Positions 3,443-39,187 of a DNA stretch of 56,509 bases are shown here, piece after piece. Numbering within the stretch: the first letter of the stretch is position 1; every line of letters starts with the position of its first letter. The stretch is from Methanomicrobia archaeon (GTDB lineage Archaea > Methanobacteriota_B > Thermococci > Methanofastidiosales > NM3): positions 1-56,509 of the forward strand of contig JAUVXU010000012.1 in assembly GCA_030603445.1 (NCBI GenBank), written 5' to 3'. The position numbers and the translations under genes were made by a program. A model generated the notes under the pieces. That model ran no database searches and was not told the DNA's origin. It saw nothing but the letters and a program-made list of their open reading frames with translations.

Positions 3443-3529
3443 ATTTTACCCCTTAAACACAATAATATGAACTAACATTTATAAATTGTGCTGTTATGTG
3501 TTTTTTCACCCTATTCTAAAAATAAATTT

Positions 3530-4855
3530 CTAACTCAATTTAAGTTTTTCAAAATATTCATTTAATTTTTCCGGAGTTTTTAGTTTAAGCTTATTCTTTT
3601 TTTTGAGAAGGTTCATTATACTAGACCAAACAATATATGTTAAATAATCTAAATCGTATTTTGAAATATAAATTTCTCCATGATGAACTATTTTACTTCG
3701 TTTGTTATACTTATCTTTTATCTCCTTCTTTATATATTTCCTGTCTTCGTAGTTGTCTCCTAAAAGAAGCGCTGTTCTTTCGGCAATGTTATTAGTAATA
3801 GGTTCATTTTCATCGAAAATAAATATACATTCCAATGCATTAAATAAATAAAGAAATCTTTCACTTCTTTTTATGTAGCCTAAATTTTCAAGTTTTGTAG
3901 TTTTTTCTTCAAAGGTTTCATAACGATGATTCTGCAAATCTAAAGATTCTCCAAACCAATATATAGCAGTTAGTACTCTACTTTCAAAAGCATTTGGTTC
4001 TATCAATATTTTATTTAATTCATTTAATCCTTTCTTTTTCATATATTCTATTGTATCTTTATCTAATTCAAAGGGTTGCCCAATATGCTCTATGATAGGG
4101 GCAATTCTATTTTTATTTGCAGTATATCGTATAATGCTCCTACTAGAATTACTCATAATTTCTCCTTTTATCCCAAAATAACCTTTATGTTTATTTTTCA
4201 TGTTATAACTATAGAGTTTTAAAATGTCAAGAATTAATCTAATTTTATAGAATGCAATTTGTTGTGCCTTTTCTAATGATCCTTTAACTTTTACCTCTGC
4301 ACAAGTCAATCCACTATTGGGTTCAATCATCCTTTTCCAAAATAGTTTAGACAGATTTTCTTTTTGATGAGAATTATAGTGTATATTGTCTTTAAAAAAA
4401 TCTTTAATGAATTCTTTTAATTTGTTTTCTCTATACGTATTTAAAACATATAATTTAACGTCTCCTAAAGAAAACGTATTTTTTATAGATATATTTTCTA
4501 ATGGGACTATAAATATCCAATCTTCAATATCTTTCTTTAAATCTGATTTTAAATTGTTAAGTTGTTGTGTCAAAAAATTAGATTTATTTTCTTCTGGCAA
4601 GATAATGGTTTTTGATATAATAATCTCCAATTTTTTTGTCACGCATTCTTTTGTGAAATTGTTTTTTATAAATTCGTCTTTACATATCTCATTCAAGGCT
4701 TCGTAAAATTCATATTCATCTTTATGTTCCAAGAATATGGATATACCTTCTTTATACCAATATTTTTTATAATTCTTAAAATCTTCTTGCTTAAAATTCT
4801 GAGGATTAGAAACTATTTTTAATAAGCACTCTTTAGTTTTTTTTATATCAAACAT
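3530..4855 (-). CDS. Apea-like HEPN domain protein, candidate RNase partner
   Basis: A 441-residue protein. The C-terminal part matches the Apea-type HEPN domain: IAERTALLLGD, then KRSKIVHHGE, which gives the R-x4-H motif (about R386 to H391) of HEPN ribonucleases. The N-terminal half is Lys/Glu-rich and helical with no domain I recognise, perhaps a sensor. HEPN proteins with an intact R-x4-6-H motif commonly cleave RNA in toxin-antitoxin and abortive-infection systems. It is the first gene of a probable two-gene operon with the SIR2-STAND gene. An accessory role in the same defence system is inferred from position. Base composition is strongly AT-rich like its partner. Confidence 0.7.
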   Translation of the reverse strand: MFDIKKTKECLLKIVSNPQNFKQEDFKNYKKYWYKEGISIFLEHKDEYEFYEALNEICKDEFIKNNFTKECVTKKLEIIISKTIILPEENKSNFLTQQLNNLKSDLKKDIEDWIFIVPLENISIKNTFSLGDVKLYVLNTYRENKLKEFIKDFFKDNIHYNSHQKENLSKLFWKRMIEPNSGLTCAEVKVKGSLEKAQQIAFYKIRLILDILKLYSYNMKNKHKGYFGIKGEIMSNSSRSIIRYTANKNRIAPIIEHIGQPFELDKDTIEYMKKKGLNELNKILIEPNAFESRVLTAIYWFGESLDLQNHRYETFEEKTTKLENLGYIKRSERFLYLFNALECIFIFDENEPITNNIAERTALLLGDNYEDRKYIKKEIKDKYNKRSKIVHHGEIYISKYDLDYLTYIVWSSIMNLLKKKNKLKLKTPEKLNEYFEKLKLS

Positions 4856-8427: not shown

Positions 8428-8663
8428 ACAACTACTCTTGTCTTTGAAGTGTAATATACTTATTTATTGAAATCATTTGGGATGCATCACAAGAAGTTCA
8501 ATGAATTGTTATAGAACATATATAGTTTTTCAGGCACCTTTGTGAGTTCCCATCCTGATTTTTTTGGATATATTAATATATAATAACACATATGAAATAT
8601 TTCCAAGCAGAAGATAAAAAACTATTTTTAGCTTCAACCTAAAAGTATTATTGCGTGGTAAGC

Positions 8664-10211
8664 ATGAAATGCACCTACACTTACGATCATGACAAAAAAG
8701 AATGCCCCCATAATGCACAAGACAATAAGACGGTCTGTCTATGGCATGACAAAATTGATGGGAAGGATCTAAGGGGAAAGGACCTTCGCAACCTAGATTT
8801 GGATGAGGCATATCTTAAGGGAGCGCACCTCTCCAAAACCAACATGAAAGGCTGCATGCTTGCAAACGCAAATTTAGAGGAAGCCAATCTGGATGAGGCT
8901 AATCTTAAGGGGGTCATGGCCCACGCATGCAATCTGACAAAGGCACAGATGCGAAATGCAGATCTTGAGGGAGCGCACCTTAAGTATGCGATTATGGAAG
9001 GAACAATAGTTGCAAACAGCAATTTGAAAAACGCAGACCTATCCTGGGCCGAACTTAAAGGGGCGCTTCTTCCCGGAGCACAGCTCCAGTACGCTTCGCT
9101 TCTTGATTCAAATCTTGAACAGGCAATACTATTGCATGCATCGCTTGAAAGAGCTAACATGAGGGGAGCGGATTTACGAGGGGCTGACTTGCAGCTGGCT
9201 GATATTAGGGGAGCTGATTTGCGAGGGGCTGACTTGAAGGGATGCAACTTCAGGGGGGCTGATATGAGGGGAACAGACTTCAAATATGCCATGCTTGATG
9301 GTGCGATACTCTCAAATGGAAATTTGCAAAACGCAGACTTTGCCAAGGCACAGCTAAAAGGCACTCTTATGCAAAACGCCTTTTTGCAACGCACAAACTT
9401 CAGGGAAAGTGAAATGGGAAACGCTAATCTCAAGAACTCCAACTTGAAAGGCGCGAATCTTAGGGGAGCCAACTTGAAAGGCGCGAACTTCGATAACACC
9501 ATCCTTAAAAATGCAGACTTGTTCAACGCCAAAGTTAACGGTATGATGAATCTGCGCTACGCGCTCCTAGATAATATGGTCATTACAGAAAAAAAAGGGA
9601 ATGAGGACCTGAAGAACTCCAAATACATTTCTGCGCTTAAGCGATACGACGAGGCTATTAAGTCCTACATTGACCTGAAGAACTATTTCAATTCTGAAGG
9701 GCTTTATGAGAAATCAGGAGAATACTACGTGAGGGAATGGATAGTAAAAGGCAAGGTGCAACGTACCGCAGGCTTGCTTGACAAAGAGCATCTTAAGACG
9801 AACAGATTCATGCCATACTACCTCCCAATCTCGTTTAAATATATGGAAAACAGGATGTTCCCTCTATTAGTTGCAATAGAAAGCAGGATGAAATGGATTT
9901 TTAATAAAATCGTCTATCACACGTCTAGGTATGGTGAAAGTTCGATACGCGTGTTGCTTTCATCACTTACCATAATATTCCTATACGCTACGTTTTACTG
10001 GACATCACACGGCATAACGCCTGGTGCAGATTCTTACGTGCCAACATTCTCAGAATCCATATACTTTAGCGTAGTTACGTTCACAACACTTGGATACGGG
10101 GACTACCACCCTAAACCATCTTTCCAGTTAATTGCAACAAGTGAGGCGATAATAGGCGCCTTTATACTTGCATTTTTTGTAGTCGTAGTAAGCAGGAGAC
10201 TTATTCGTTGA
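8664..10211 (+). CDS. Pentapeptide-repeat protein fused to a two-TM potassium channel
   Basis: About 515 residues. Residues ~30-300 are A(D/N)LxX pentapeptide repeats (many ADLRG, ANLKG, ADLKG units), which form a right-handed quadrilateral beta-helix. A helical linker with YY/EKSGEYYVREW follows. The C-terminal ~90 residues have a membrane helix (LLSSLTIIFLYATFYW), a pore loop with the selectivity filter TTLGYGDY, and a second helix, as in Ion_trans_2 two-TM K+ channels. It sits in the membrane with the repeats probably cytoplasmic. ATG at 8664 is preferred; a GTG at 8655 in frame is possible. An N-terminal CTYTYDHDKKECPHNAQ segment may bind metal. The ligand is unknown. Confidence 0.85.
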   Translation: MKCTYTYDHDKKECPHNAQDNKTVCLWHDKIDGKDLRGKDLRNLDLDEAYLKGAHLSKTNMKGCMLANANLEEANLDEANLKGVMAHACNLTKAQMRNADLEGAHLKYAIMEGTIVANSNLKNADLSWAELKGALLPGAQLQYASLLDSNLEQAILLHASLERANMRGADLRGADLQLADIRGADLRGADLKGCNFRGADMRGTDFKYAMLDGAILSNGNLQNADFAKAQLKGTLMQNAFLQRTNFRESEMGNANLKNSNLKGANLRGANLKGANFDNTILKNADLFNAKVNGMMNLRYALLDNMVITEKKGNEDLKNSKYISALKRYDEAIKSYIDLKNYFNSEGLYEKSGEYYVREWIVKGKVQRTAGLLDKEHLKTNRFMPYYLPISFKYMENRMFPLLVAIESRMKWIFNKIVYHTSRYGESSIRVLLSSLTIIFLYATFYWTSHGITPGADSYVPTFSESIYFSVVTFTTLGYGDYHPKPSFQLIATSEAIIGAFILAFFVVVVSRRLIR

Positions 10212-25332: not shown

Positions 25333-25971
25333 TTAGAAAAAAGTGATATATGCCAGATACATCGCCAGCCCGGAAAGTATGGGCACAAAGAAGTTGTCAT
25401 CCACTACGACGCGTTGAAAGATGTTGTTTCCCCTATAGTTCTCAAATGCTGGCATCTCCACAATAGCACCAGTGATGGCCCCTATGGAGGTTAATCTCAT
25501 TACATCAAATATCGAGTCAAGGGGGGCGGTGAAGTACATTGCAATTGTCGTTGCTATAAAAGCGAATACTACAAATGAAATGCTGCCTTCTATAGTTTTA
25601 TTCTTGTTAAGAGGACTATATGTTTTTCCGTATCTCTTGCCTATAAGCGTTGCAAATCCGTCGCCAAATGCCATTATCCCTATGGCAGCCGCAGATATGA
25701 ACAGTGGGTAGAATGCGACACAAATACCAATAGCACATATGTATACAAGAGGGCCGATAAGGTAAGTGTAGCTGTAATCTTCCATTCGCGCCATAAATTC
25801 AAATGAACTTGTCCATGCATGCGGCCTAAAAACAAATAATGCCAAAAATAACATCAAAAGAACTACCATCATTGCAGGTGTTCGGGAAAGAATAAGAGGA
25901 TAAAACATCCATAGCCCCATGCCGATGTGTATGACCTTGCGCTTGGCCTCTTTTGATAGCTCAACACCCAT
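25333..25971 (-). CDS. Polyprenol/phytol (dolichol) kinase-like membrane protein
   Basis: 212 residues with about six membrane helices. The conserved region FGDGFATLIGKRYGKTYSPLNKNKTIEGSI, read in pieces, holds the GDG...GK and K-T-x-EG motifs of the CTP-dependent SEC59/VTE5 kinase family. The N-terminal KRKVIHIGMGLW is also typical. In archaea it may phosphorylate geranylgeraniol or another isoprenoid alcohol for lipid salvage. It is downstream of, and on the same strand as, a thioredoxin-like gene, 31 bp apart. Confidence 0.8.
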   Translation of the reverse strand: MGVELSKEAKRKVIHIGMGLWMFYPLILSRTPAMMVVLLMLFLALFVFRPHAWTSSFEFMARMEDYSYTYLIGPLVYICAIGICVAFYPLFISAAAIGIMAFGDGFATLIGKRYGKTYSPLNKNKTIEGSISFVVFAFIATTIAMYFTAPLDSIFDVMRLTSIGAITGAIVEMPAFENYRGNNIFQRVVVDDNFFVPILSGLAMYLAYITFF

Positions 25972-26002
25972 TGCATATCCTCCTATTGGTTAGAGAATTG
26001 GA

Positions 26003-26302
26003 TTATATAAACTCATCGTATTCCTCCTCTTCATAGAGGTCTTCATGAAGCGAGTCGATTATGTCTTCAAGATCCTCAATTTCTATCACGCCTTCTATTT
26101 TTGTGATTATCTCTTCATCCTCTTCTAGTATTAGCATCGGGATGTTTATAACCTCATATTTGCGAGCCTTGTTGGTCTGGTAGTCAACATTGACAAGCTC
26201 GAAGATAACATCATCATATTCGAGAGCGAGTTCCTCAAGCACGCTGCTTTGTATCTCGCAATCCTGACACCAATCAGCATAGAAATAAAGGATTTTAATC
26301 AT
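26003..26302 (-). CDS. Thioredoxin-like protein
   Basis: 99 residues. Active-site motif WCQDC near residues 12-16 after the YFYAD strand, and the cis-proline segment INIPMLIL near 53-60 identify a thioredoxin fold. The C-terminus is very acidic (YEEEEYDEFI). The CQDC motif differs from the usual CGPC, so the redox partner may not be standard thioredoxin reductase. Probably cytoplasmic. Directly upstream of the polyprenol kinase-like gene. Confidence 0.8.
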   Translation of the reverse strand: MIKILYFYADWCQDCEIQSSVLEELALEYDDVIFELVNVDYQTNKARKYEVINIPMLILEEDEEIITKIEGVIEIEDLEDIIDSLHEDLYEEEEYDEFI

Positions 26303-26535
26303 GTGTGTCCTTTTTTAAAGAACCATCTTTTAAGTTTTGTGGTAATAGGGGGCGTTGGAGGAGAAAATTACTCTCTTCTCTTTTTAGCCCTTGAAAATAA
26401 TTGCAACTAACATTTATGTATATATACGAAGTTGATGATTTATCATTCATCAAACACGAAGTACCATCGAATAAAAATATCTAGAGCAGGAATGAGTATT
26501 AAAAGAATTGGCAAATAATTTTAATTATAATCTTA

Positions 26536-26558
26536 TTATTAATAATAATGTTAATTAG
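26536..26558 (+). repeat. 23-bp direct repeat, copy 1, upstream of fic
   Basis: Identical to 26608-26630 (core AATAATGTTAATTAG), 72 bp apart centre to centre. Lying 100-200 bp before the Fic gene, the pair could bind a repressor, possibly the Fic protein's own winged helix. Confidence 0.6.
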
Positions 26559-26607
26559 CAAATAACTTATTAAAAAAAAAGAGTGTTTTCTTTAATAAGG
26601 GAAAGAC

Positions 26608-26630
26608 TTATTAATAATAATGTTAATTAG
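26608..26630 (+). repeat. 23-bp direct repeat, copy 2, upstream of fic
   Basis: Second exact copy of the repeat at 26536-26558. It is extremely AT-rich, so some chance similarity is expected, but 23 identical bases in a row is unusual. Confidence 0.6.
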
Positions 26631-26733
26631 TCATTCTATTGTTTAAATAATGTCCTATTTAGTTTAATTAAACGCTTCTTATTAAATAAAAAATAGAAAT
26701 ATTTAAATAGTAGTCCTTATTTTTATATTTATT

Positions 26734-27885
26734 ATGGATAAAGAAGAGTTTGAAGGTGCTTTTGGCGTAGTGAATGAAAGAGAAGATAAAAGGTGGGGGA
26801 AACATTTGGCATTTGTGCCTAACAAATTGCCTCCAAAAATTAAATATGATCAAAAATTAGCTCTTTCTCTTTCTAAAGCAGATTCAACATTAGGTAAACT
26901 ATCTGGGGTCGGTTTATTACTCCCAAATCCTAACTTATTGATTATGCCTTACCTTAGGAAAGAAGCTCTTATGAGTTCTAGAATTGAGGGAACAAGAATA
27001 TCGTTATCTGAACTACTATTATCTGAAGCAAAAGGAATTGAGGAAAGCATACCAGATGCTTTAGAAGTTATTAACTATGTACATGCAGTAGAATATGGCC
27101 TAAAAAAAATTGAGAATAAACCCATTGATTTAGAAATAATTAAGGGCATGCATAAAATTTTGATGAAAGATGTAAGAGGCAAAGATAAGTTACCTGGGAA
27201 CTATAGGGACATTCAAAATTGGATAGGCCCTAGAAACTCTAGCGTTCAAGAAGCTACTTTTGTGCCCCCGGGATCTGAAGAAGTATCTTCTTTAATGAAC
27301 AGGCTCATTGAATATTTAAACACCAATGATGGCACCCCTTTATTGATAAAATGTGCTTTAATGCATTACCAGTTTGAAACTATTCACCCGTTCTGCGATG
27401 GCAACGGCAGGATTGGTAGAGCACTAATTACACTATATTTATGCAAAAAGAAGTTAATAATTAAGCCATTACTCTATCTTAGCGGTTTTTTTGAAGCAAA
27501 TAAGAGAGAATACAGTTCTCTTCTCTTGAAAACAAATAAAGATGGAAACTTTGAGGAATGGATAGACTTCTTTTTAGAGGCCGTAGCTGTACAAGCAGAT
27601 GATGCATCACAAAGAGCTTCTAAAATACAAAAACTTAGAGAAGAGTATAGACAAAAGATTCAAAATGAATTCCAGACATCATCGCTTACAAAATTAATAG
27701 ACAAATTATTTTTGAATCCTTACATATCCATCACGAATGCTGAAAAAATATTGAAAGTAACTTATCCTACTGCAAAAAGGCTTATTGAGAATTTAATGGA
27801 TATAGGAATTTTAGAACCTGCGGATAAGAGGGAAAGAAACAAGATTTTTATAGCGCATGAGATATTTCGTATAATTGATATTTGA
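26734..27885 (+). CDS. Fic-family protein with C-terminal winged helix
   Basis: 383 residues. The Fic AMP-transferase motif HPFCDGNGRIGR lies near 218-229, complete with catalytic His and anion-binding Gly/Asn/Arg. An N-terminal SSRIEGT (about 82-88) matches the inhibitory (S/T)xxxE(G/N) helix, so this is a self-inhibited class II Fic. The C-terminal ~65 residues (ITNAEKILKVTYPTAKRLI, then ENLMDIGIL) form a winged helix, common in Fic proteins thought to regulate their own genes. It transfers AMP to protein hydroxyls; the target is unknown. AT-rich like the surrounding accessory DNA. Confidence 0.88.
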   Translation: MDKEEFEGAFGVVNEREDKRWGKHLAFVPNKLPPKIKYDQKLALSLSKADSTLGKLSGVGLLLPNPNLLIMPYLRKEALMSSRIEGTRISLSELLLSEAKGIEESIPDALEVINYVHAVEYGLKKIENKPIDLEIIKGMHKILMKDVRGKDKLPGNYRDIQNWIGPRNSSVQEATFVPPGSEEVSSLMNRLIEYLNTNDGTPLLIKCALMHYQFETIHPFCDGNGRIGRALITLYLCKKKLIIKPLLYLSGFFEANKREYSSLLLKTNKDGNFEEWIDFFLEAVAVQADDASQRASKIQKLREEYRQKIQNEFQTSSLTKLIDKLFLNPYISITNAEKILKVTYPTAKRLIENLMDIGILEPADKRERNKIFIAHEIFRIIDI

Positions 27886-27923
27886 GAATTAGATAAAATC
27901 CTTATGCGTTCTATCTCATTTGT

Positions 27924-28673
27924 TCAAAGGCCTGAAACAGAATCAATGGCTCTCTCAAACGTATCCCTCAACAGATCTAGGCTGCCCTGTATCTGGCCTA
28001 TTGGAAGCCCGAAAGAGTCTGCCATGGCATGTGCCCTTTTGTAATCTTCCTCATCCTGGATTCCCTCCTCAACTATTAGTGCCCTTTTGTAGTCATTTGC
28101 ACTAAGCATTATCTTTGTGTATGAGTCGTTGTACTCCCTTCCATACCTCTCGCTGATTCGCTTGACCATATCCTCCCTGTGGTCAACAAAACCAGGTGTC
28201 AGGAAAAAGCTTCCATTGCGCTTTAGTTCCTCAAAGTATTTTTCCCTTCCTAGAACAGAACATATGCAGTCGTCAACCATTCCTTCTTCGTCTGATGGAT
28301 AGAACAGTTTTACATTCTCACGCCGGATGACTGAAGACAGAGCGTTGCCACAAAGACCATAGAGAAGAAGTATTGAGGATGTGCAGTCCTTAAATCTATT
28401 AACCTCCTCGTTGCATGCATACGTCAATTCATCTATATCAATGTGCAATCCTATGGGCAGGATGTTAATCAAAACATCCAAAGTCGGGGATAGCTTCGGG
28501 AGGAAGTCAGGGTCCCCAATAAACTTCACTTCATGTCCAGAGATGAACTTTGAAAAATGCATATTCTCAGGGCTCCTTACCATATATAGATTATCCACAT
28601 CTGTATTGTTATTCAAAATGTGGGCAAGTTCCCTCTCAAATACCTGGCAAGCAATGATGCCCAATCTTCTCAT
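27924..28673 (-). CDS. DUF1638 family protein
   Basis: 249 residues. Start MRRLGIIACQVFERELAHIL, then a central SSILLLYGLCGNAL and DDCICSVLGREKYFEEL, and a C-terminal region with HAMADSFGLPIGQIQGSLDLL: the pattern of DUF1638 proteins, which in methanogens often occur near corrinoid methyltransferase genes. Conserved Cys/Asp suggest metal or cofactor binding. No methyltransferase is adjacent here. Function unknown. Confidence 0.7.
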   Translation of the reverse strand: MRRLGIIACQVFERELAHILNNNTDVDNLYMVRSPENMHFSKFISGHEVKFIGDPDFLPKLSPTLDVLINILPIGLHIDIDELTYACNEEVNRFKDCTSSILLLYGLCGNALSSVIRRENVKLFYPSDEEGMVDDCICSVLGREKYFEELKRNGSFFLTPGFVDHREDMVKRISERYGREYNDSYTKIMLSANDYKRALIVEEGIQDEEDYKRAHAMADSFGLPIGQIQGSLDLLRDTFERAIDSVSGL

Positions 28674-28860
28674 GAGATTTATGTAAAATTAGAATATTAA
28701 AGATTTTTCTCTTAAACGGGTTTTGTATGATGCAAAAGGTAAAATGATTTCTCAGAAGAGTTATTGAAATGCATAAGCCGATTTTGGAAAATGAAGTGAG
28801 CCGTATGGCCCATGGTGAATAGATGCATTGGCCCCGTATGAAGGATTGTCCGAAGCTTCC

Positions 28861-29943
28861 TTATTCTTCTAATCCACTGTTTTCGACCTGTCCTATATCC
28901 CGTCTAGCTGATATTAAATATTTAATAGATAAATAAAAAACCAATATACCTATTACACAATCAATAAGCCAGAACAATAACATGATTATATCTCTAAAAT
29001 CCCCCAGCAAAAATTTATTGATCACAGAGGAAATAGTGAAGAGTAAAGATAGGATTATAACTATTTTCCATGAAAAGTTAATTGGCGAGCTGATGGTTTT
29101 AGGCAATGCTGTTTTTTTGGATTTTCTTAAATGAAAAAATAACAGGATAAATAATCCTGCATATATCAGCCAGATAATCAATTGGGGAAATAGCCCTGGT
29201 AACGCTTCAGGTCGTATAAGAATTCCCAGCAAAATATACATAATCACTAACAGAGCTAATAGAAATGAGAACTCTCTTTTGTTTGGAAGAAGAGCCTGAA
29301 TAGTATATTTCTTGCCGTTTGTTTTATTCCTCCATAGGTATATCAACAACATGAGGGCCGCAGTTGTTGAAAGTCCCGACAGTAAAGAATGCATTGGAGA
29401 AGGAGAGTTAAGGCCTTGGAATATCCCAAATAATACAGCGCATGATAAAAGCAGAATATAGCTTTTCTTTCTGGAGTCAAACAAACTTTTTATTCTGTTC
29501 GGCAATCCGTTTACAATTCCTCTTGAGTTGGTTAATACACTCTCGCTAATGAATAAGGGGATGATAAATGACATAAAAGAGTGCCAGAAGAATACTAGAA
29601 GAATAACTTCTACTACTGCAATACCTGCTACTGAAATGAAAGGATCTCCCCAAGAAGGAGTCCATAAAACCTTTGTTAGATATGCTTCATACATCCCAAA
29701 AATTGCTCCGGATATGAAAAGCGTATAAAAACAAGGTTTGCCATAATTAAACACGATATAAGACAATACAAGGATGTGGAGAGTATATAGTGGAAATTCC
29801 AGCGCCAACCCCCATAAACGAAAGAAGGGAAACATATCCGAGCCAGAAACAACTTCGGCGAAGAAAACAGATAATGATCCTAAAATAATCCAGAAAAAGA
29901 ATTTAAGTTTTTTGGATGGTTGAACGTTTATGTTATTTCCCAT
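28861..29943 (-). CDS. Multi-pass membrane protein of unknown function
   Basis: 360 residues with about ten hydrophobic segments spread over the whole length, for example FFFWIILGSLSVFFAEVV at 15-32 and ILVFYLSIKYLI near the end. A FFAEVVSGS...GLALEFPLYTLH region near the start is the most distinctive. No transporter or enzyme motif recognised. Its ATG lies 9 bp from the inverted repeat of the GNAT cassette, so the cassette insertion may have replaced its promoter region. Confidence 0.6.
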   Translation of the reverse strand: MGNNINVQPSKKLKFFFWIILGSLSVFFAEVVSGSDMFPFFRLWGLALEFPLYTLHILVLSYIVFNYGKPCFYTLFISGAIFGMYEAYLTKVLWTPSWGDPFISVAGIAVVEVILLVFFWHSFMSFIIPLFISESVLTNSRGIVNGLPNRIKSLFDSRKKSYILLLSCAVLFGIFQGLNSPSPMHSLLSGLSTTAALMLLIYLWRNKTNGKKYTIQALLPNKREFSFLLALLVIMYILLGILIRPEALPGLFPQLIIWLIYAGLFILLFFHLRKSKKTALPKTISSPINFSWKIVIILSLLFTISSVINKFLLGDFRDIIMLLFWLIDCVIGILVFYLSIKYLISARRDIGQVENSGLEE

Positions 29944-29951
29944 AATAATTC

Positions 29952-29966
29952 ATAATAGTTGTTAGA
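29952..29966. repeat. Inverted repeat, left end of the GNAT cassette
   Basis: ATAATAGTTGTTAGA is the exact reverse complement of 30661-30675. Its inner end reads GTTAGAC, which matches the integron attC core GTTRRRY. Confidence 0.7.
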
Positions 29967-30094
29967 CCATATAATCTTAACGAGTTTCGGGCAAATTCAC
30001 TTAACGTTTGACTTAAGGGAAGTTGCACAACGAATTTGAGCGAAGCGACACCTTGTATTCTTTATTAAGTGCAAAAACACTAAAAATCATTTAT

Positions 30095-30631
30095 TCATTT
30101 AGAATAATCTCGTTTTAGAATTGAATACATCTCTAAGTCAACATAATGACCATATTCAAATTCATAATCTCTTAGTATTCCTTCTTTTTGGAATTGATTT
30201 CGAATTAATACAATTTTTGAACTTTCATTTCTAACATCTACCATCGCTTCAATTCTATTATATTTAAGCTCATTAAAACCCCATTTTAATAATTGTTTTA
30301 TAAAGTTGGTAATTATTCCTTTACCCCAATATTTCTTACAAAGTATGTAGCCTAATTCGGTTCTGTTATGTTCTTTTATGAAATCGAAAAAACCAATATC
30401 ACCAATATAACAATCATTGTTTTTTTCAGTGATTATCCATCTTCCAGCGTTTTCTGCAAACTGTTTGATACACCAATCTACTTGTTTTTTTGCATCATTA
30501 ATATTTGCATAAAAAGTGCCATTAGTGCCATAATATTTCATGACTTCTTTATCATGGCTAATTTTATAAAATCCTTCAGCATCATGAATTTTAGGTTTTC
30601 TTAATTTATAATTTTTGTATTCAAAATTCAT
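30095..30631 (-). CDS. GNAT acetyltransferase, RimJ/RimL type
   Basis: 178 residues. Start MNFEYKNYKLRKPKIHDAEG is the typical first strand of RimJ/RimL-like GNAT proteins; GYILCKKYWGKGIITNFIK near 108-126 holds the acetyl-CoA binding loop (Q/R-x-x-G-x-G/A variant), followed by NRIEAMVDVRNESSKIVL and FQKEGILRDYEF. It transfers acetyl to an amino group on a protein or small molecule; the target is unknown. I chose the ATG at 30631, as GGAATTGTCAAA precedes it; an upstream in-frame start would run into the inverted repeat. Strongly AT-rich and bracketed by 15-bp inverted repeats, hence probably acquired. Confidence 0.85.
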   Translation of the reverse strand: MNFEYKNYKLRKPKIHDAEGFYKISHDKEVMKYYGTNGTFYANINDAKKQVDWCIKQFAENAGRWIITEKNNDCYIGDIGFFDFIKEHNRTELGYILCKKYWGKGIITNFIKQLLKWGFNELKYNRIEAMVDVRNESSKIVLIRNQFQKEGILRDYEFEYGHYVDLEMYSILKRDYSK

Positions 30632-30660
30632 TTTGACAATTCCTTTTTGGTGTTCTTGCA

Positions 30661-30675
30661 TCTAACAACTATTAT
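30661..30675. repeat. Inverted repeat, right end of the GNAT cassette
   Basis: TCTAACAACTATTAT is the exact reverse complement of 29952-29966. With the preceding A it reads ATCTAAC, matching the integron RYYYAAC core. Confidence 0.7.
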
Positions 30676-30865
30676 ACGAACCTTTTGTTTTTATAACATA
30701 TCATTTTAAGAGTTAAAGCGAAATTTAATTAATTCCAAATGAAAAATCAATTTGAAAATAATTTTGTGCAAATTTCTCAATTAAATATGTAAAACTCAAT
30801 AAAAAATATGGGTTAATCAAAAAACTCTTTAATATAACCCAAGACAAGAAGAGAGGGGAATTGCA

Positions 30866-32107
30866 ATGAACATGAAAGCCTTGCATGCGCTGGACTATTA
30901 CAGGGGGCTTCCTAATAGCATTTACGTCCTATTCGTGTCAAGGATCATTAACAGCATGGGTGCGTTTGTGCGTCCATTCCTCGCAATATTTTTAACTTTA
31001 AATATGGGAATAGGGCCGGCGCAAGCAGGCCTTATCGGGACTATTGCGATATTAGTATACGCACCAGGATCCGCAATAGGTGGGATACTTGCAGATCGTG
31101 TTGGAAGAAAAAAAACGCTTATCACGTTTAGATTTCTTGCCGCTGCCTGCTACGTCCCCTGTGCGTTTCTTGGCAACTCAATGCTCATTCCTATCTTTCT
31201 TATCATGTCGGCCTTTATAAGTGGAATAGCCGATCCCTCAAGCAACTGCATGGTTGCAGACCTAACAAACGAGAAAAACAGAAAGCAGGCTTTCTCTTTG
31301 CTATACCTTGGAATAAATATGGGGTTCTCCATCGGGCCCATGATAGCCGGATTCCTTTACACCAATTATATAGAATGGATATTTCTTGGTGACGCCATTA
31401 CCTCTTTTGGGTCTATTATCCTTATCCACCGCTACGTGAAAGAGACTATGCCCGACCTTTCATGCATTGACGAGTATGGCATAAGAAAAGACTCCGATGA
31501 ACGTCCAGAAGAAGGCGCATTCTCGCAAGTATTGCGCAGACGGCCGCTACTTATATATTTTGCTTTTATTAACATGCTTCTTTGGTTTGTTCTATCCCAA
31601 TGTAACTTTACGCTGCCGCTGCAGGTAAATGAGCTGTTTGGTACAAGTGATGGGCCGCGATTATTTGGGATACTTATGTCTATTAACGGCCTCGTTGTTG
31701 TGATGATGACGCTTTTTTTAACTAAACTCACCCAAACGCTAAAACCAATAATAAATATTAGTATATCAGGCATTCTTTGCGCCATTGGCTTTGGCATGCT
31801 TTATTTTTCGTCTGACTTCAGGATCTTTATGTTATCAACAGCAATTTGGACTATGGGAGAAATACTAAACGCCACAAACTCCGGAGTATATATAGCAAAC
31901 CACACACCAATGTCCCATAGGGGCAGATTCAACGCTGTCATTAACCTCATAGGCGGGACAGGTATAAGCCTAAATCCATTGCTTATGGGAATTTATATTA
32001 GCGCTTTTTCCCTAAGGATGGTTTGGCCACTAGTCGTGGCCCTTAGCATTGTAGGCACAGTGCTCATGTATGCACTATATCTTCTTGAGAAAAGGAAAGT
32101 TTACTAA
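30866..32107 (+). CDS. Major facilitator superfamily transporter
   Basis: 413 residues with twelve probable membrane helices. The MFS motif between helices 2 and 3 reads GGILADRVGRKKTL (about 72-85). A cytoplasmic loop lies near 190-225. The pattern YLGINMGFSIGPMIAGFL in helix 5 resembles the drug-proton antiporter motif C of exporters, so efflux is likely. A ribosome-binding AGAGGGGAATT lies just before the ATG. Substrate unknown. Confidence 0.88.
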   Translation: MNMKALHALDYYRGLPNSIYVLFVSRIINSMGAFVRPFLAIFLTLNMGIGPAQAGLIGTIAILVYAPGSAIGGILADRVGRKKTLITFRFLAAACYVPCAFLGNSMLIPIFLIMSAFISGIADPSSNCMVADLTNEKNRKQAFSLLYLGINMGFSIGPMIAGFLYTNYIEWIFLGDAITSFGSIILIHRYVKETMPDLSCIDEYGIRKDSDERPEEGAFSQVLRRRPLLIYFAFINMLLWFVLSQCNFTLPLQVNELFGTSDGPRLFGILMSINGLVVVMMTLFLTKLTQTLKPIINISISGILCAIGFGMLYFSSDFRIFMLSTAIWTMGEILNATNSGVYIANHTPMSHRGRFNAVINLIGGTGISLNPLLMGIYISAFSLRMVWPLVVALSIVGTVLMYALYLLEKRKVY

Positions 32108-32124
32108 AAAGTAAAGTAGAATAT

Positions 32125-32217
32125 ATGAATTTTTGTCTTAATCCTGTTGAGGGATGGTCTCACGGTTCTAAATTTCCGTGTTATGCGATGAATATAGCAA
32201 AAGGTATGGAAGAATAA
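32125..32217 (+). pseudogene. Remnant of a radical-SAM (DUF5131/phage Gp37-Gp68-like) protein
   Basis: A 30-residue frame reads MNFCLNPVEGWSHGSKFPCY and ends KGMEE-stop. The start resembles the NPVxGCSHGCxxCYA cluster-binding region of DUF5131/Gp37-Gp68 proteins, but the first two cysteines are Trp and Ser and the rest of the protein (normally about 230-300 residues) is missing. It lies between the MFS gene and the AT-rich defence cluster and probably marks another insertion boundary. Confidence 0.4.
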
Positions 32218-32443
32218 AAGATTATGAAAAATAGTTAAAACCAAAATTAGTTAAAAATTCATTTGAATTAATAGATAAAGAAATTCCAAAATATAAAAAA
32301 AGTTAATATACTATTTATATTGTACTATATAAAGATATTATATATTATTTACTAAACAATAATGATTTATCATCCTTTATAAATAATAGTATAGAAAGAT
32401 TTATAAGTATATAACTCCAATATATACTATATAATAATATATT
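32218..32443. promoter_or_regulatory. AT-rich promoter region of the MORC cluster
   Basis: About 225 bp with several TATA-like strings, the nearest being TATATACTATATAA around 32420-32433. The GTG start of the zinc-ribbon gene follows within 15 bp, so one of the more distal elements is the likelier TATA box. No gene seen. Confidence 0.4.
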
Positions 32444-33406
32444 GTGATTAACTTGAGTATATTACATCCGGATGGAAATTGGGTAAAATGTGGTAATTGT
32501 AGCTCCGAATTTGATCTAAATAAAAATAATGGCTGTCCTTTATGTGGTTTTGGTAGTAATAATAAATTAATTATTAAAAAAAATAAAAATAGCTTAATTA
32601 AGGATAATAATGTCAATTATTTAGATATTCCTAACGATTTAAAAGTAATATCAAAAAAACCTATAGTTAACTACCAAACAAAAACAGTTGGTAGTTGGGG
32701 AATGTTCAATTCTTTTTTTCCTGGAAAAGCAATTCTAAGGATATTAGCTAATTTATTAAATGAAAATAAATCAGAATCTATGAAATTAAGCGATCTTATA
32801 AAAACAAGTTCAGAAGTATTTAATAAAAGGGGATTTTCAAAATTAAGGGGATTTCCAAATAATCCTAAAAAAGACAATTCCATAAAAAGATTAGTATATC
32901 ACTTTATAGAAACCTTTGAAGAAATGAGTTTTTTCATAGTTAATTCTCCAGAAATAAAAAGAGAAAAAATTTGGAATGAACAATGGAATAATATAAACAT
33001 AACTTTATCGAAAGAAGGTTTAGAATTTGCAAAAATTAGAAATATAGTACTTGATAATTATGAATTCGTTCAAGTGCTAACTATAGAGGAAAAAAAGTGG
33101 TTATTAGAGTATCTAAAAAAAATAGATAGCCAAGGCTATAAAGAATATTCTATGTTAAAAAACGTTTTTGAGTTTATTAAACAAGGACATAACGGTAAAG
33201 ACGAGTTGTGGGATTGGTTTAGAAAAAACCCTGCTTTTGTAGATTATGTTAAAGAATGGAGTCGGAAGGCAAACAATCCTGTAGCGTTTAATAAACAGAT
33301 AAATAATTTATCTCCCACTTTTGCGGCTAGCAAATTAGCTCTATTAAGGGAATTAAATGTTATAAAAAATAGGAGAAACGATTATACAATAATAAGTGAT
33401 TTATGA
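32444..33406 (+). CDS. Zinc-ribbon protein, first gene of the candidate MORC system
   Basis: 320 residues starting at a GTG (a TTG at 32453 is an alternative). Cys16, Cys19, Cys31 and Cys34 (KCGNC and GCPLCG) form a zinc ribbon. The rest is Lys/Asn-rich and helical, with KLSDLIKTSSEVFNKRGFSK near 105-125 and a C-terminal winged-helix-like end (ASKLALLRELNVIKNRRNDY). No known family recognised. Its stop overlaps the start of the ATPase gene by 4 bp, so the two are translationally coupled. A nucleic-acid-binding or substrate-recognition role is inferred. Very AT-rich. Confidence 0.6.
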   Translation: MINLSILHPDGNWVKCGNCSSEFDLNKNNGCPLCGFGSNNKLIIKKNKNSLIKDNNVNYLDIPNDLKVISKKPIVNYQTKTVGSWGMFNSFFPGKAILRILANLLNENKSESMKLSDLIKTSSEVFNKRGFSKLRGFPNNPKKDNSIKRLVYHFIETFEEMSFFIVNSPEIKREKIWNEQWNNINITLSKEGLEFAKIRNIVLDNYEFVQVLTIEEKKWLLEYLKKIDSQGYKEYSMLKNVFEFIKQGHNGKDELWDWFRKNPAFVDYVKEWSRKANNPVAFNKQINNLSPTFAASKLALLRELNVIKNRRNDYTIISDL

Positions 33407-35727
33407 TGAAAAAACAAAATGAAGAATTAAAGATTGAAAAAGATGAAATAGAGTTTCATCAACTTGGAGTACTTACATCAGTCACTAAATGGATAAACAC
33501 GCATGAACGTGGTTTTCCAGAATGGATAAAAAATGTTAGATCTGCGTATAATAGATTAAATCTTCCAGAAAAACATAAGGTGGCTGTTTTACTCTTCAAA
33601 GATAAAGATGAACGGGGCCCAGCAAAATTAGGTTTACTTGATGTAGGCGGTGCAACAAGTGAGGATATTAAACGATGGTCTGTATGGCAGGATCCAGAAG
33701 CGTCTTCTAGAGGGCAAGAAAAACAAGAAGAAACCCAAGGTAATGGGGGAAAAGCGTATATGTATCGCCTTTTTAAGGGTCCTGCGTATATAATTGGTAT
33801 AAAAAACGATATCAGAAATTGTAAAGGTTTCAGTGGTGAATGTGGTTCGCTCGATAGAGGAAATCCAGGATTTATTCCAAATAAAAAAGAAGGAAAAAAC
33901 TGTAAAATATCAGAATGGGATTATAAATTACTATCAGAATTACAAAATTTCAATGCAAACATTGCTAATCTTCCAACTGAAGTTAGAAATACAATCTACG
34001 ATAGGAAATCATTTACCATCGTGTGTGGAAGTAATCCAGTAGAATGGGAAAACAAAGATATTAATTCATTCTTAAAGCGAATCATAAAGCAATCACAATC
34101 CACTTTAGCTATAGAACAAGTAAAATTTTATGTTATTCATAATGGCAAATTGCTCTGGAGAGGTAAACCATTGAAACTTGAAGATATTACGCCTCATCCT
34201 AAATTTAAGGAACCAATTATATATGACATCCCCAAAACACTTTTAACAAGAGATGGGAACCAAGTAAATACCACCAAATCCCCTTCTGGGATACATGCCC
34301 CCGGTAGGATAATACTTTACACATCAAAAGAGAATATGGAAGCATCTCATGTTGTTCTTAAACCAAGATGGGCAGTAACTTACAAGACAAGATATGAAAT
34401 TGTGGGGCAGAAAACAATGCCAGAAATTATTTCCGCCCCAGGAACACATTTTATTTACGCTTCTGTAGAATTAGATGCTTTAAGTCCAAATTATGTCAAT
34501 CTCGGAAGAAAAATACCTAATGAAGGTCCCCTTATTGACGCAGTGGATAAATTTTTATCTGAAAAGATAAGAGAATTGGCAAAGCAAATTAATGAGTTTA
34601 ATAAAGAAGAACTTGATAAATCTTTTTTAGATGATATTCAAAAAGAAAATATTTATTTAAATGATTTAAAGAACGAATTCCTTCCTAAAGGAGGCGCTCT
34701 TGAAGTAGTTGATACTAATGGAGAAGGCACAGGTTCAAAAAAACAAAAGACTCATAAATCTGTTCAATGGGGCGAAAAAACTTATAAAATAGAAACCCAA
34801 GTTTATGCTTTTAAAATAGGTGTCCGTGTTTCTGTAAATTTGAAAACATTATTAAAACCATCCGCAAAAGATAGTAGTGGAAATCCTATTCTTTCTCCAA
34901 ATTGGGAATGGAAATCGGATAATAATAACATAATTGAAATTGATAATGCAGGCAATTGTAAAGCCAAATTGAAAGGGACATGTAATATTTGGGTTTCTTT
35001 AGCAAAATCAAGTGTAATCTCGGCGCCCATAGAAGTAGAAGTATGGGATATAAAAGAAATTATTTTATCGCCAAGAAATCTTGAGATTTCAACTGGCCAT
35101 ATAAAAATGATTACGGCGCAAGTAACAAATGATGAAGGAGAGAGATCAGATGATGTTATATTAAAATGGAGACATGATTCAGAAGATCAAAAACTTATTA
35201 AGATTAGTCCTAAAGGGTATATTTTTGGAAATACGATAGGGAAAACTAATGTTTATGCTGAAACGATAATTTCTTGTACTAATCCTTGTGAAGTTGAAAT
35301 TATTAAAAGCAAAAATGTTGAAGGTAAAGGAAGCGGTTTCCCTCAATTATTGCTAACTGACAAAGATATTGATCCATTTACAGGCCAAAGTAAAGAAGGG
35401 GATCCTGAGGCATCTGTTTTGTGGCAGGAACCAATTGATGTAAAAAACAATATATGGTGGTTAAATTTACAAAGTAAAGATGCCGCATTTACTTATAACT
35501 ATAGAGAAAAAGATAAAAGACTTTGGAGATTATTCCATTCCAAAATCCTTGTTGAAATGATGATACAGGTGCATATGCAGGAAGAATATTATAAAAAAGA
35601 ACAAAAGGAAGGTTTATGGTCTGATTATAAAAACGTTTACGATAGAAAATATGTTGAATTGTCACAAGCTATGTGGGTGCGGGAAAAACTAGGCAAATAT
35701 GTTGAATATGGTATAGGGGATGAGTAA
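33403..35727 (+). CDS. MORC/GHKL-type ATPase with two Ig-like (BIG_2) domains
   Basis: 774 residues. The N-terminus looks like a GHKL (Hsp90/MutL/MORC) ATPase: possible N-box E40-WIK-N44, LLDVGGAT with D80-x-G-G, and GNGGKAYMYRLF (113-124) as the glycine-rich lid motif. A transducer-like segment continues to about 400, followed by a helical stretch (~400-440). Residues ~467-547 and ~550-628 are two Ig-like group 2 (BIG_2) repeats (ILSPRNLEISTGHIKMITAQ, then GYIFGNTIGKTNVYAET). The C-terminal ~120 residues are novel. MORC-like ATPases are known in some restriction-modification neighbourhoods. BIG_2 domains are usually extracellular; no signal peptide is present, so this combination is unusual. 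Overlaps both neighbours. Confidence 0.65.
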   Translation: MMKKQNEELKIEKDEIEFHQLGVLTSVTKWINTHERGFPEWIKNVRSAYNRLNLPEKHKVAVLLFKDKDERGPAKLGLLDVGGATSEDIKRWSVWQDPEASSRGQEKQEETQGNGGKAYMYRLFKGPAYIIGIKNDIRNCKGFSGECGSLDRGNPGFIPNKKEGKNCKISEWDYKLLSELQNFNANIANLPTEVRNTIYDRKSFTIVCGSNPVEWENKDINSFLKRIIKQSQSTLAIEQVKFYVIHNGKLLWRGKPLKLEDITPHPKFKEPIIYDIPKTLLTRDGNQVNTTKSPSGIHAPGRIILYTSKENMEASHVVLKPRWAVTYKTRYEIVGQKTMPEIISAPGTHFIYASVELDALSPNYVNLGRKIPNEGPLIDAVDKFLSEKIRELAKQINEFNKEELDKSFLDDIQKENIYLNDLKNEFLPKGGALEVVDTNGEGTGSKKQKTHKSVQWGEKTYKIETQVYAFKIGVRVSVNLKTLLKPSAKDSSGNPILSPNWEWKSDNNNIIEIDNAGNCKAKLKGTCNIWVSLAKSSVISAPIEVEVWDIKEIILSPRNLEISTGHIKMITAQVTNDEGERSDDVILKWRHDSEDQKLIKISPKGYIFGNTIGKTNVYAETIISCTNPCEVEIIKSKNVEGKGSGFPQLLLTDKDIDPFTGQSKEGDPEASVLWQEPIDVKNNIWWLNLQSKDAAFTYNYREKDKRLWRLFHSKILVEMMIQVHMQEEYYKKEQKEGLWSDYKNVYDRKYVELSQAMWVREKLGKYVEYGIGDE

Positions 35728-36460
35728 TATAGAGCAGTCAAACTCATTAACACTCAATGAAAAGACGTTATTAGCTGCATTCGCCTTACAAGGAAACGAT
35801 TTAAAGAAAAAATTTACAGCTGAGGATCTCCTTATTGAAGTATGGAAACAGGACAAGGGTACTTTTGGTTTGAGGAACTATGAGAACCAATACCCAGATT
35901 CGAATAAAGTATATACCAAACTTGATGGAAAAAACGGTTTAGTTAGAAAAGGACTTTTGAAGAAGATATCAAATAGAACTTACACTATGACGCCAGCTGG
36001 TATGTCTATAGCTACTTCATTGAAGCCGGTAGATGAAGAAACTAAATTTAAAGTGAATAGAGAACTTTATGAAGCAATAAAAAAAATATTAAATCACAGA
36101 GTTTTTACAGAATGGTTAAGAAATCCTAAAAATCCCAATAAATTTAGAGATGCTGGCTGGTTTTGGGGCATATCTCCAGGAAACCCACCAAAAATTGTTA
36201 AAGAAAGATTAGCAAATATTGAGCAAAATCTACTAGAAGCAAAAAAGAAAGCTATTGAAGCAAGAGGTAAACTTGTAATAAACGCAAGAGACCTAGATAA
36301 AAATGTTAAGGAATCTCTTATTTCAAAAGGCAATTCAAATATAGGGGGGCATAAATCAAAAATATTTTTAGATATCAAAGATATAAATAAATGCATTGAA
36401 TTTCACGAAACTTTAAAAAAGCGCTTTGAAAAGGAACTTAATATAATGTTAAGTAATTAA
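35720..36460 (+). CDS. Winged-helix-like protein of the MORC system
   Basis: 246 residues of unknown family. The first ~90 residues (TLNEKTLLAAFALQGND, KFTAEDLLIEVWKQD, GLVRKGLLKKISNRTYTMTPAG) look like a winged helix, the last strand pair resembling HTH 'TPAG' wings. The second half is helical with a coiled coil (NIEQNLLEAKKKAIEARGK) and FRDAGWFWGISPGNPP in between. It overlaps the ATPase gene by 8 bp (co-translated) and the convergent methyltransferase gene by 4 bp. It could be the DNA-binding or specificity subunit; this is inference. Confidence 0.55.
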   Translation: MSNIEQSNSLTLNEKTLLAAFALQGNDLKKKFTAEDLLIEVWKQDKGTFGLRNYENQYPDSNKVYTKLDGKNGLVRKGLLKKISNRTYTMTPAGMSIATSLKPVDEETKFKVNRELYEAIKKILNHRVFTEWLRNPKNPNKFRDAGWFWGISPGNPPKIVKERLANIEQNLLEAKKKAIEARGKLVINARDLDKNVKESLISKGNSNIGGHKSKIFLDIKDINKCIEFHETLKKRFEKELNIMLSN

Positions 36461-37575
36461 ACTTTATTTAAAATTAGTATTCTGTCTGTTCTCGTTGCAT
36501 TTCCTTTCTTATCTCCCCATATTTTTGAAACTTTTGTATTATCACTAATTGAGTCTGAGATTATGGGTTTCACAAGATTAAATCCCAAAGGTTTAGCGCA
36601 TTTTTCTAACACAATATTTGCCAAATTAAATACATTATCGCTGGTTCTATCTTCTACATCCCCAATAATCAACACAATTTTTCCATCAGATTTCAAGGTT
36701 CTTTTCATCTCATTCAAAGCTTTGGTCATGAAATCACAATATTTAGTGATAGATTGAGTAAAGAATAATTTTTTATCGACCTCTTTTCCAGATTCCCCTA
36801 GAAACCACAACCGTATCCAATTAAATTTACCATAACGAATCACCCTGGTGTATGGTGGCGATGTAACAATTAAATCTACTGAGGAGTTTTTTATTTTTGA
36901 CATTTTTGTTACATCTTGATTATATGCCTTTCCTCTTATGGTGGGTCTTTGATAACATCTATCTAATTTTTTATTTAGTAATGTAAAAACATCTCTTTTT
37001 GGTTTACTAAGTTGATGTTCAATAATATAATTTTTCACGTAGTTTGGGGACATAGAAAATGTATTGGGCATGCTTATTGAAAGATAAGCTTTAGAATTTC
37101 CATGCATAATACCAACTACCATGGCAGCAATAAAAGCATCTATATTGCTTTTTTCCCAATTCAATTTATTCTTAAGGAAAACTAATTGACGTAATGTATA
37201 ATCATTATATAACATTTTAATTTTTTCTTCTACTCCATCAATGCTTATTTTAGACATATTGCACTCTTTAGATAATTTATCAATTTTTGATAGAATTCTA
37301 CCTTTTTGAGGTACATTTGACTTTGCTTTAGTTAATAGATAAGCTAGAGGATTTCTGTCGTTTCCAATTCCAATTCTATTCATGAAAACCGCTTCTAAAA
37401 CCGTAGTACCTCTACCAGAAAATGGATCAAAAATAGTATCCCCCTCCTTAGAATATTTTTGTATAAAATAATGGGGCAGAGAAGGGGGAAACATAGCCAT
37501 ATAGCTACATAAAGAATGTAGTCTATTGTTCATATTTTTTGGGAATTCTTTCCATTCGCATATTTGATCTTGCAT
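36457..37575 (-). CDS. DNA methyltransferase (N4-cytosine/N6-adenine type)
   Basis: 372 residues. AdoMet-binding motif I, FDPFSGRGTT, at 49-58 precedes catalytic motif IV, TSPPY, at 238-242. This order and the SPPY form fit amino-methyltransferases, more often N4-cytosine. The segment between (~90-230) probably includes the target-recognition region. IVLIIGDVEDRT near 310 is a further conserved strand. The gene converges with the wHTH gene, overlapping by 4 bp, and is as AT-rich as that cluster, so I take it as the modification enzyme of the same system. No endonuclease domain is recognised nearby. Confidence 0.85.
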   Translation of the reverse strand: MQDQICEWKEFPKNMNNRLHSLCSYMAMFPPSLPHYFIQKYSKEGDTIFDPFSGRGTTVLEAVFMNRIGIGNDRNPLAYLLTKAKSNVPQKGRILSKIDKLSKECNMSKISIDGVEEKIKMLYNDYTLRQLVFLKNKLNWEKSNIDAFIAAMVVGIMHGNSKAYLSISMPNTFSMSPNYVKNYIIEHQLSKPKRDVFTLLNKKLDRCYQRPTIRGKAYNQDVTKMSKIKNSSVDLIVTSPPYTRVIRYGKFNWIRLWFLGESGKEVDKKLFFTQSITKYCDFMTKALNEMKRTLKSDGKIVLIIGDVEDRTSDNVFNLANIVLEKCAKPLGFNLVKPIISDSISDNTKVSKIWGDKKGNATRTDRILILNKV

Positions 37576-38038
37576 GATTAACCTTTTTTTATGTTTATTT
37601 CATTTGCTAATTTTCTTTTAATGTATCTCTTAAATAAGTTTGCCTATTGTTTTTATGTCTCTTTCGTAGTATAAATTTTTTTATTTCCAATCTGAAAGTT
37701 AGACAATAAAAAATCTCCAAAACTTAATAATGAAGAAAAATGAAAATAAGGATTAAAAAGGGATGTAAAAAAGATAATTGATAAATTGAAGCAAAAGAAA
37801 GAATTTCTTGAAAAAGTACCAAAAAAAGGATATAGGTGGCGGTAAGTACTCCAAAAGGAAAACATAAAAACAATAGATAGAAAACTAAAAATAGGGGTTA
37901 ATCATAATCTTGTAAAAAGTATTTTTAATTCTTATTTTTATCTATTTACCTAATTTATAGGGTGCTTTTCTTCTCCCAAAAACATAAATGCGTAATATAA
38001 CGATAGCGATGTCTAGCCTTTGTTATCCTTAAACGGTA
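37576..38038. other. AT-rich stretch with repeat copy B
   Basis: 460 bp between the methyltransferase and pyrC. It contains repeat copy B (37828-37910), a 31-codon frame end just before it (VKKIIDKLKQKKEF to GYRWR-stop, about 37753-37845) that looks like the C-terminus of a lost gene, and a small AAGAAA/TTTCTT hairpin. Nothing else is visible. Confidence 0.45.
37828..37910 (+). repeat. Dispersed repeat, copy B
   Basis: Homologous to 49-141: shared GTAAGTACTCC, AGATAGAAAACTAAAAATAG and GTTAATC blocks, and the same reading-frame end (YRWR versus HRWQ). It lacks most of the hairpin seen in copy A. It borders the methyltransferase side of the MORC cluster. Confidence 0.7.
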
Positions 38039-39187
38039 TCATTTGCGCCCTATCTCTTTTCCCCTTGCCCCAGAAACAACTTCTCCATCTTTAAAGAACG
38101 GCATGCCTCGCACCCATGTCTCAACAACTTTTGCATCCACGCTCATGCCATCAAAGGGCGAGTGCTTAGCCTTGGAATAGAAGTTTTTCGCATCGATCGT
38201 GTAAGAATCCCCAAAGTCAACTATCGTAAAATCCGCCCTGCTGCCTCCATCCATGCCAAAATCCCTGCCCCGGGCGTGAAGTATCCTTTTCTGATTTGCA
38301 TGCATGCAACGATAGAACGTCTCATATGATATCTGCCCCCTGTTAAGGGCCGTTAGCATGAGCGGGAGCATTGCCTCAATTCCCGAAACACCGTATGCCC
38401 CCTTCTCTTTCTCATCTGATGTGTGTGGGGCGTGATCTGAAGCAACGATGTCAATGACACCTCCAAGTGCAGCCCATAGCGCATCCCTGTCATTTTTAGT
38501 GCAAAGCGCAGGCTTTACATCATAAATTCCAGATAAGAATAAGTGGTGTGGAGTTACCTCACAAGTTATGTTATTATCCTTGTGCTTTCCAATTAGCATT
38601 ACCTCATCCTTTGTAGAAACGTGGCAGATATGAAGAGGAGTACTGTATTTTTTCGAAAACTTAATTGCTTTTCTCATGCCGCTATGATCTGCATGTAAGG
38701 CTATAGGTTTTTGCAACATGAACACTTTCTCTAACAGCGCCTCATCCAAAATGTATGAGCCTGTTGTCTCATCCAAGTATACCTTAATAAAAAAGGGGTC
38801 CACACTTGCAGCCTGGCTCATAGAGTACTCGTCAAACACACAGAAGTTTATAAGATAATCACATACGGAGTCTTTAGAAAAGAGATCTTGGCGCCTCAGA
38901 TAGGTCTTCTTGTCTGCCACAGGAGGTATTGTGTTTGGCATATCGCATACAGCGGATATGCCTCCTGCCAAAGCTGCTTTACTTCCTGAGGCCACCGTCT
39001 CCTTGTTGCGCTGGTCAAAATCCCTGAAGTGAACATGCATATCTATTACAGAGGGGATTAGTGCCAAGGAAGGTTTAACGTCTGCTGCCCCTATCGTGGA
39101 AAAGGATGCCATGCGCCCACCCTTTATTCCCAAACGCACAGGAAGCATCCCTTTTGACGTAATAATATTTATATTAAAACACTCCAT
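38039..39187 (-). CDS. pyrC: Dihydroorotase
   Basis: 382 residues. Zinc-binding MHVHFRD near 49-55 after SVID, LHADHSGM and HICHVST with further metal histidines, and VASDHAPHT near 245-253 holding the catalytic Asp: the class I (type III) dihydroorotase pattern. It interconverts carbamoyl aspartate and dihydroorotate in pyrimidine synthesis. It is divergent from pyrB with only 42 bp between the starts, so both promoters overlap. Length is slightly short for class I (about 400-430). Confidence 0.88.
   Translation of the reverse strand: MECFNINIITSKGMLPVRLGIKGGRMASFSTIGAADVKPSLALIPSVIDMHVHFRDFDQRNKETVASGSKAALAGGISAVCDMPNTIPPVADKKTYLRRQDLFSKDSVCDYLINFCVFDEYSMSQAASVDPFFIKVYLDETTGSYILDEALLEKVFMLQKPIALHADHSGMRKAIKFSKKYSTPLHICHVSTKDEVMLIGKHKDNNITCEVTPHHLFLSGIYDVKPALCTKNDRDALWAALGGVIDIVASDHAPHTSDEKEKGAYGVSGIEAMLPLMLTALNRGQISYETFYRCMHANQKRILHARGRDFGMDGGSRADFTIVDFGDSYTIDAKNFYSKAKHSPFDGMSVDAKVVETWVRGMPFFKDGEVVSGARGKEIGRK

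Follow-up and report, generated by a model that had tools for sequence, protein, structure and literature searches.

Four genes of the window, the whole 56,509-nucleotide stretch of archaeal DNA analyzed, form a block arranged around a putative GHKL ATPase; it most likely represents a relative of restriction-modification defense that has not been described so far. Genes A (32444-33406, 320 aa), B (33403-35727, 774 aa) and C (35720-36460, 246 aa) lie on the + strand and overlap by 4 bp (A/B) and 8 bp (B/C), while a DNA methyltransferase (MTase) gene on the - strand (36457-37575) converges on C with a 4-bp overlap. ORF positions and GC values agree with an earlier sequence-only reading, which had described four tightly packed AT-rich genes: their GC content is 0.27-0.33, vs 0.42-0.47 in pyrB/pyrC and their neighbors. 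No significant match to any Pfam, NCBIfam or PADLOC model was obtained for A, B or C, and scans of the window block with Pfam, NCBIfam, PADLOC and PHROGs bear out the earlier statement that neither a nuclease nor an SF2 helicase is recognizable in it. The claim that the system is undescribed stands in part: A, B and C are absent from family and defense libraries, but MORC/paraMORC proteins are known from restriction-modification operons (PMC2292703), and both A and its bacterial counterpart S also head operons with the PADLOC candidate family PDC-M33A. Overall, the block is real, mobile, conserved and outside the libraries searched, and it is likely a new variant of GHKL-associated restriction-modification on the MORC/paraMORC theme, not a categorically new system.

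When a genome collection was scanned with B, one relative was found, in an Aenigmatarchaeota MAG (L002), where all four genes keep their order and orientation between unrelated flanks; identities to the window are 48% for A, 71% for B, 74% for C and 63% for the MTase. Since this arrangement recurs in an unrelated archaeal contig, the block is more than a chance assembly. The B family is rare, as it was found in 1 of 156 genomes of the Aenigmatarchaeota phylum and, apart from the window, in none of 396 sampled relatives. In bacterial loci, a gene of approximately 75 aa, S, lies upstream of B in the slot held by A in archaea, and a conjugative Ensifer plasmid (L003) carries S-B-C and also encodes an MTase. 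Moreover, two phage-like contigs of a viral collection (L004, L005) carry B-C, likewise behind S, with an MTase in the convergent position next to C that it has in the window, and a third contig of that collection (L006) has B alone, truncated by the contig end. The phage collection contained no B, and further scans of viral contigs with alignments of A, B and C gave no extra loci. The conserved co-occurrence that the sequence-only reading proposed to look for is thus found, with C after B in every complete locus and all four genes together in the Aenigmatarchaeota MAG.

The block is horizontally acquired and lies in a recently gained stretch. An island of approximately 11.7 kb (26303-38038), which also holds Fic, DUF1638, GNAT and MFS genes, is missing at the corresponding place in two related genomes, one of the same genus (G001) and one of the same family (G004). 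There, pyrC lies behind the gene pair that matches window 25333-26302, immediately in G004 and after one different gene in G001; as pyrC is close to that pair in both, 26303-38038 is a variable insertion. In addition, codon use in the block is atypical, with GC3 values of 0.19-0.24 in the four genes vs 0.44-0.51 in flanking core genes, and the acquisition is concluded from this together with the absence of the stretch from the two relatives. No convincing flanking repeats were found in window 31900-38300. The Fic protein of the island (26734-27885, + strand) has a SoFic-like C-terminal domain.

We then considered whether B is a GHKL ATPase. The motifs previously pointed out, D80-x-G-G and GNGGK at 113-117, are indeed present, and the full series reads, in order, E40..N44 (ExxxN), D80-V-G-G (DxGxG-type) and GNGGK (GxGK-type). 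Across the six B sequences compared, D80, G83 and GNGGK do not vary, and neither do E40 and N44, two residues that had not been listed earlier; the second motif is degenerate (DVGGA/DFAGA). As to the Bergerat fold, the AF2 model obtained for B is of low quality, with a mean pLDDT of 41, and still all top 50 matches of a Foldseek search against the PDB with this low-confidence model were GHKL proteins, SMCHD1 being the best (E 1.1e-5), followed by MORC2, MORC3, Hsp90, MutL and GyrB. At the sequence level, Pfam HATPase models did not recognize B, neither B nor C nor an 831-aa GHKL-motif protein (see below) matched any PDB sequence, and hhalign of B against MORC-like, PDC-M33A, 621-aa and 831-aa GHKL profiles, all of them thin, gave no signal. 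As sequence profiles gave no link to other GHKL sets, B is either very diverged or undersampled. Based on its motifs and the matches of the low-confidence model, B is very probably a GHKL ATPase of MORC/SMCHD1/MutL-like type, with Ig-like and helical parts at its C-terminus, and the previously proposed pairing of a MORC/MutL-like GHKL ATPase with a DNA methyltransferase is supported. B is not classed as MORC proper, a group with a GhXhhpXXRhl motif in the S5 domain (PMC2292703), and its sequence has no Pfam match. The two BIG_2 repeats formerly assigned to B could be kept only as an Ig-type region: residues 502-633 match PHROG 215 (Ig; E 2.8e-6), whereas a single, sub-threshold Big_2 match was obtained (E 0.011, residues 502-531), and two repeats are plausible by eye.

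Protein A, the putative adapter upstream of the ATPase, carries two CxxC pairs, read from the sequence as a zinc ribbon, with a Pfam match below cut-off. The ribbon proposed before is thus seen in the window protein, but it belongs to an exchangeable N-terminal part, which among homologues is a zinc ribbon, a beta-alpha type or an RHH type, and it occurs in only four of the eight A homologues compared. The designation of A as a zinc-ribbon protein as such was rejected, as half of the homologues have something else in its place; what all of them keep is a predicted wHTH-like core. An AF2 model of A is helical with wHTH-like features, and its best structural matches are wHTH-like, none of them significant. 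A homologues are present in seven other loci, and with hhalign the archaeal and haloarchaeal forms of A are linked at 98%. Protein C, which has no library match, also appears to be wHTH-like, and a FGxRxYExxYPD motif is conserved in it.

The window MTase matches Pfam N6_N4_Mtase (E 1e-21) and has DPFSGRG before TSPPY (motifs at 50 and 238); by domain and DPF(S)G/TSPPY motifs it is a predicted type II-like N4/N6 DNA methyltransferase. Partners of the same type occur in L002 (63% identical) and L079 (53%), while the enzymes of L004 and L005 belong to another class, in which the motif order of the window enzyme is inverted (TSPP ahead of DPFxG) and the best PADLOC model is a different one. Together with C5 enzymes, the MTase slot is therefore filled by three classes across loci. 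In all eight loci with a convergent MTase (window, L002, L004, L005, L072, L073, L078, L079), the MTase, either alone or with a companion gene (Vsr, glycosylase or 569-aa), runs directly toward the operon, the two overlapping by up to 20 bp or lying up to 30 bp apart. The recruitment of non-orthologous MTases, independently, to one position argues that the MTase is part of the function. Its status as a component is accordingly retained as a recurring convergent partner, but not as one fixed enzyme, since it is exchanged between loci, as is the ATPase.

A search of archaeal genomes with an A profile yielded strong homologues in four new loci (L072, L073, L078 and L079, in genomes G526, G438, G663 and G562). 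In all of them, a large GHKL-motif protein, of three types and none of them B, lies directly after A, and an MTase is convergent; the approximately 830-aa and 737-aa proteins are read as GHKL by motif only. G526 and G663 have A, a GHKL-motif protein of about 830 aa and a 259-aa protein, opposite Vsr and a C5 methyltransferase; G663 has a further 569-aa gene. This last protein (L078, 3916-5625), located between Vsr and the GHKL operon, shows a PD-(D/E)XK-like stretch by eye and has no PADLOC match. G438 has A, a PDC-M33A-like GHKL protein and two more genes, opposite an HhH-GPD glycosylase and a C5 methyltransferase; the glycosylase is paired with the C5 enzyme (L073, 3263-5105) where other loci have Vsr. 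G562 is the most reduced version, with A, a 737-aa GHKL-motif protein and the facing window-type MTase only. On haloarchaeal plasmids, an A with an RHH-type N-terminus precedes a PDC-M33A protein and DUF6339 (L063); in L061 (6698-12532) and L062, RHH-type A is followed by two paralogous proteins of approximately 295 aa and a DEAD/DEAH helicase, with no recognized GHKL gene. In bacteria, S heads PDC-M33A-B-C beside Dcm, Vsr and restriction endonucleases in Priestia and Planococcus, and a related DUF6339 locus in Deinococcus. Moreover, in Agrobacterium S is followed by a 621-aa HATPase_c_3-like protein (sub-threshold) and GajA-GajB, and in Dinoroseobacter by the same kind of protein (sub-threshold), one more gene, and then genes of GajA and UvrD type. 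Where S and the 621-aa GHKL protein lie upstream of GajA and GajB (L064, 6013-11285; L066, from 5980), the GHKL protein is possibly an accessory of a Gabija locus.

Comparison with known systems places the block closest to a described theme. Prokaryotic MORC and paraMORC1-5 are GHKL ATPases whose predicted operons also encode DNA methylases and Vsr; they are sporadically spread by lateral transfer, mostly with an SF2 helicase or endonuclease partner and in a minority without a helicase; in paraMORC3 a nuclease domain lies behind the GHKL part (Iyer et al. 2008, PMC2292703). The likeness consists of a GHKL gene in a conserved neighborhood with a DNA methylase (window, L002, L004, L005) and of other GHKL types with A and a methylase (L072, L073, L078, L079). 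In contrast to paraMORC, B is missed by HATPase models, has an Ig-like domain and is accompanied by N4/N6-type MTases, and the putative adapters A/S and the wHTH-like protein C are absent from the sections of that survey considered here (PMC2292703). As no SF2 helicase or endonuclease was recognized in the window block, it was filed as a variant and not as a member of paraMORC1-5. PDC-M33, a PADLOC candidate (627-aa M33A, M33B and the DUF6339 protein M33C), shares with it an operon that starts with S in bacteria or A in archaea and goes on with a GHKL-motif protein, with a C5 MTase nearby; however, B and C have no sequence similarity to M33A-C, the window has no DUF6339, and A, B and C are without PADLOC match. 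GHKL-Shedu VcSduA, whose anti-phage activity requires the ATPase, is likewise a GHKL protein, but it is a single protein with a DUF4263 nuclease fused behind the GHKL part (PMC12137116), and Pfam scans of B gave no DUF4263 match. Finally, the Gabija loci L064 and L066 share S followed by a HATPase_c_3-like protein, whereas their effectors are GajA-GajB and they have no C.

We consider it reasonably probable that the block is a methylation-guarded, restriction-like system around a GHKL ATPase, probably directed against viruses or plasmids. The recurrent arrangement, in which an adapter and a GHKL protein, in most cases followed by one or two additional genes, lie opposite an MTase (accompanied by Vsr or a glycosylase when it is a C5 enzyme), fits methylation-guarded exclusion of the MORC/paraMORC type proposed in that survey (PMC2292703), and VcSduA, which has its own nuclease, is an experimental precedent for GHKL-dependent phage defense (PMC12137116). 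Against this reading stand the lack of a recognizable nuclease in A, B or C, the negative profile comparisons and the poor model of B, the position of the Ensifer MTase (see below) and the rarity of the family. The analysis establishes the genes and their recurrence, the repeated pairing of A or S with GHKL-type proteins and of the module with non-homologous MTases, and the horizontal acquisition; we infer ATPase activity, DNA binding, methylation as a self mark, a role in defense and an end step, as follows. The MTase would methylate a specific motif in the host DNA; A, through its zinc ribbon or RHH part and its wHTH, and C, through a wHTH, would read DNA and load B onto unmarked DNA; ATP binding would close the GHKL dimer around or onto it; and this DNA would then be blocked, compacted or passed to a nuclease. 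As no nuclease is recognizable, A, B or C may contain a hidden one, or B may itself trap DNA or recruit host nucleases.

The first of these options leads to the main alternative, ordinary restriction-modification whose endonuclease, diverged beyond recognition, would be part of C, of A or of the helical C-terminal region of B, and where the ATPase would only regulate cleavage. Nuclease domains do lie behind the GHKL part in paraMORC3 (PMC2292703) and VcSduA (PMC12137116), the 569-aa gene of L078 has its PD-(D/E)XK-like stretch, and the conserved motif of C could belong to such an enzyme; against this, A, B and C of every member scanned gave no nuclease match in any library, and G562 has only A, GHKL and MTase, so that we see this alternative as possible, if somewhat unlikely. 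The boldest form of the methylation-guarded reading is nuclease-free immunity, in which a GHKL clamp would topologically trap or silence unmethylated DNA, with swappable adapter, ATPase and MTase, as a prokaryotic counterpart of MORC/SMCHD1 silencing; it is put forward tentatively and is rather unlikely. Still less probable is a stand-alone, e.g., abortive, GHKL defense module with the MTase as a defense-island neighbor outside the mechanism. The varying MTase class, the association of S with Gabija and PDC-M33, and the Ensifer locus, where a McrBC-like pair sits between the MTase and S-B-C and could own the MTase, speak for it, but the direct convergence in 8/8 loci with three MTase classes, and the retention of the window-type MTase in L079 although the ATPase is swapped, speak against it. 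Lastly, a non-defense role, in which a MORC-like ATPase would serve the epigenetics or maintenance of a mobile island (DNA organization, partition or silencing of transcription), is quite improbable. Its carriers, namely an acquired island, phage-like contigs and a conjugative plasmid, and the organization of DNA by MORC relatives in eukaryotes speak for it, but the carriers look unrelated, no partition genes were seen traveling with the block, and the Vsr and HhH-GPD glycosylase of related A loci are typical of restriction-modification and mismatch repair.

With B, a GHKL family without significant family or defense-library match is added to the methylation-linked repertoire, and the block makes it testable whether MORC-like ATPases exclude DNA without a dedicated nuclease, a question that bears on the origin of eukaryotic MORC/SMCHD1 silencing. 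Moreover, GHKL operons that are otherwise unrelated, with MTases of three classes, begin with one adapter family, A in archaea, whose slot is taken by S in bacteria; this provides a handle for finding many more of them.

Some further genes were observed beside these loci. In the Ensifer plasmid (L003, 6629-10810), the DNA methyltransferase beside S-B-C is adjacent to genes for a McrB-like ATPase (AAA_5) and for a 410-aa protein with weak likeness to nucleases. In the window, a 1064-aa SIR2_2 protein and an adjoining 441-aa protein without Pfam match (248-4855, - strand; very AT-rich, GC 0.25-0.30) are possibly a second defense pair, and a pentapeptide-repeat protein with an ion-channel domain at its C-terminus is encoded at 8655-10211 (+ strand).
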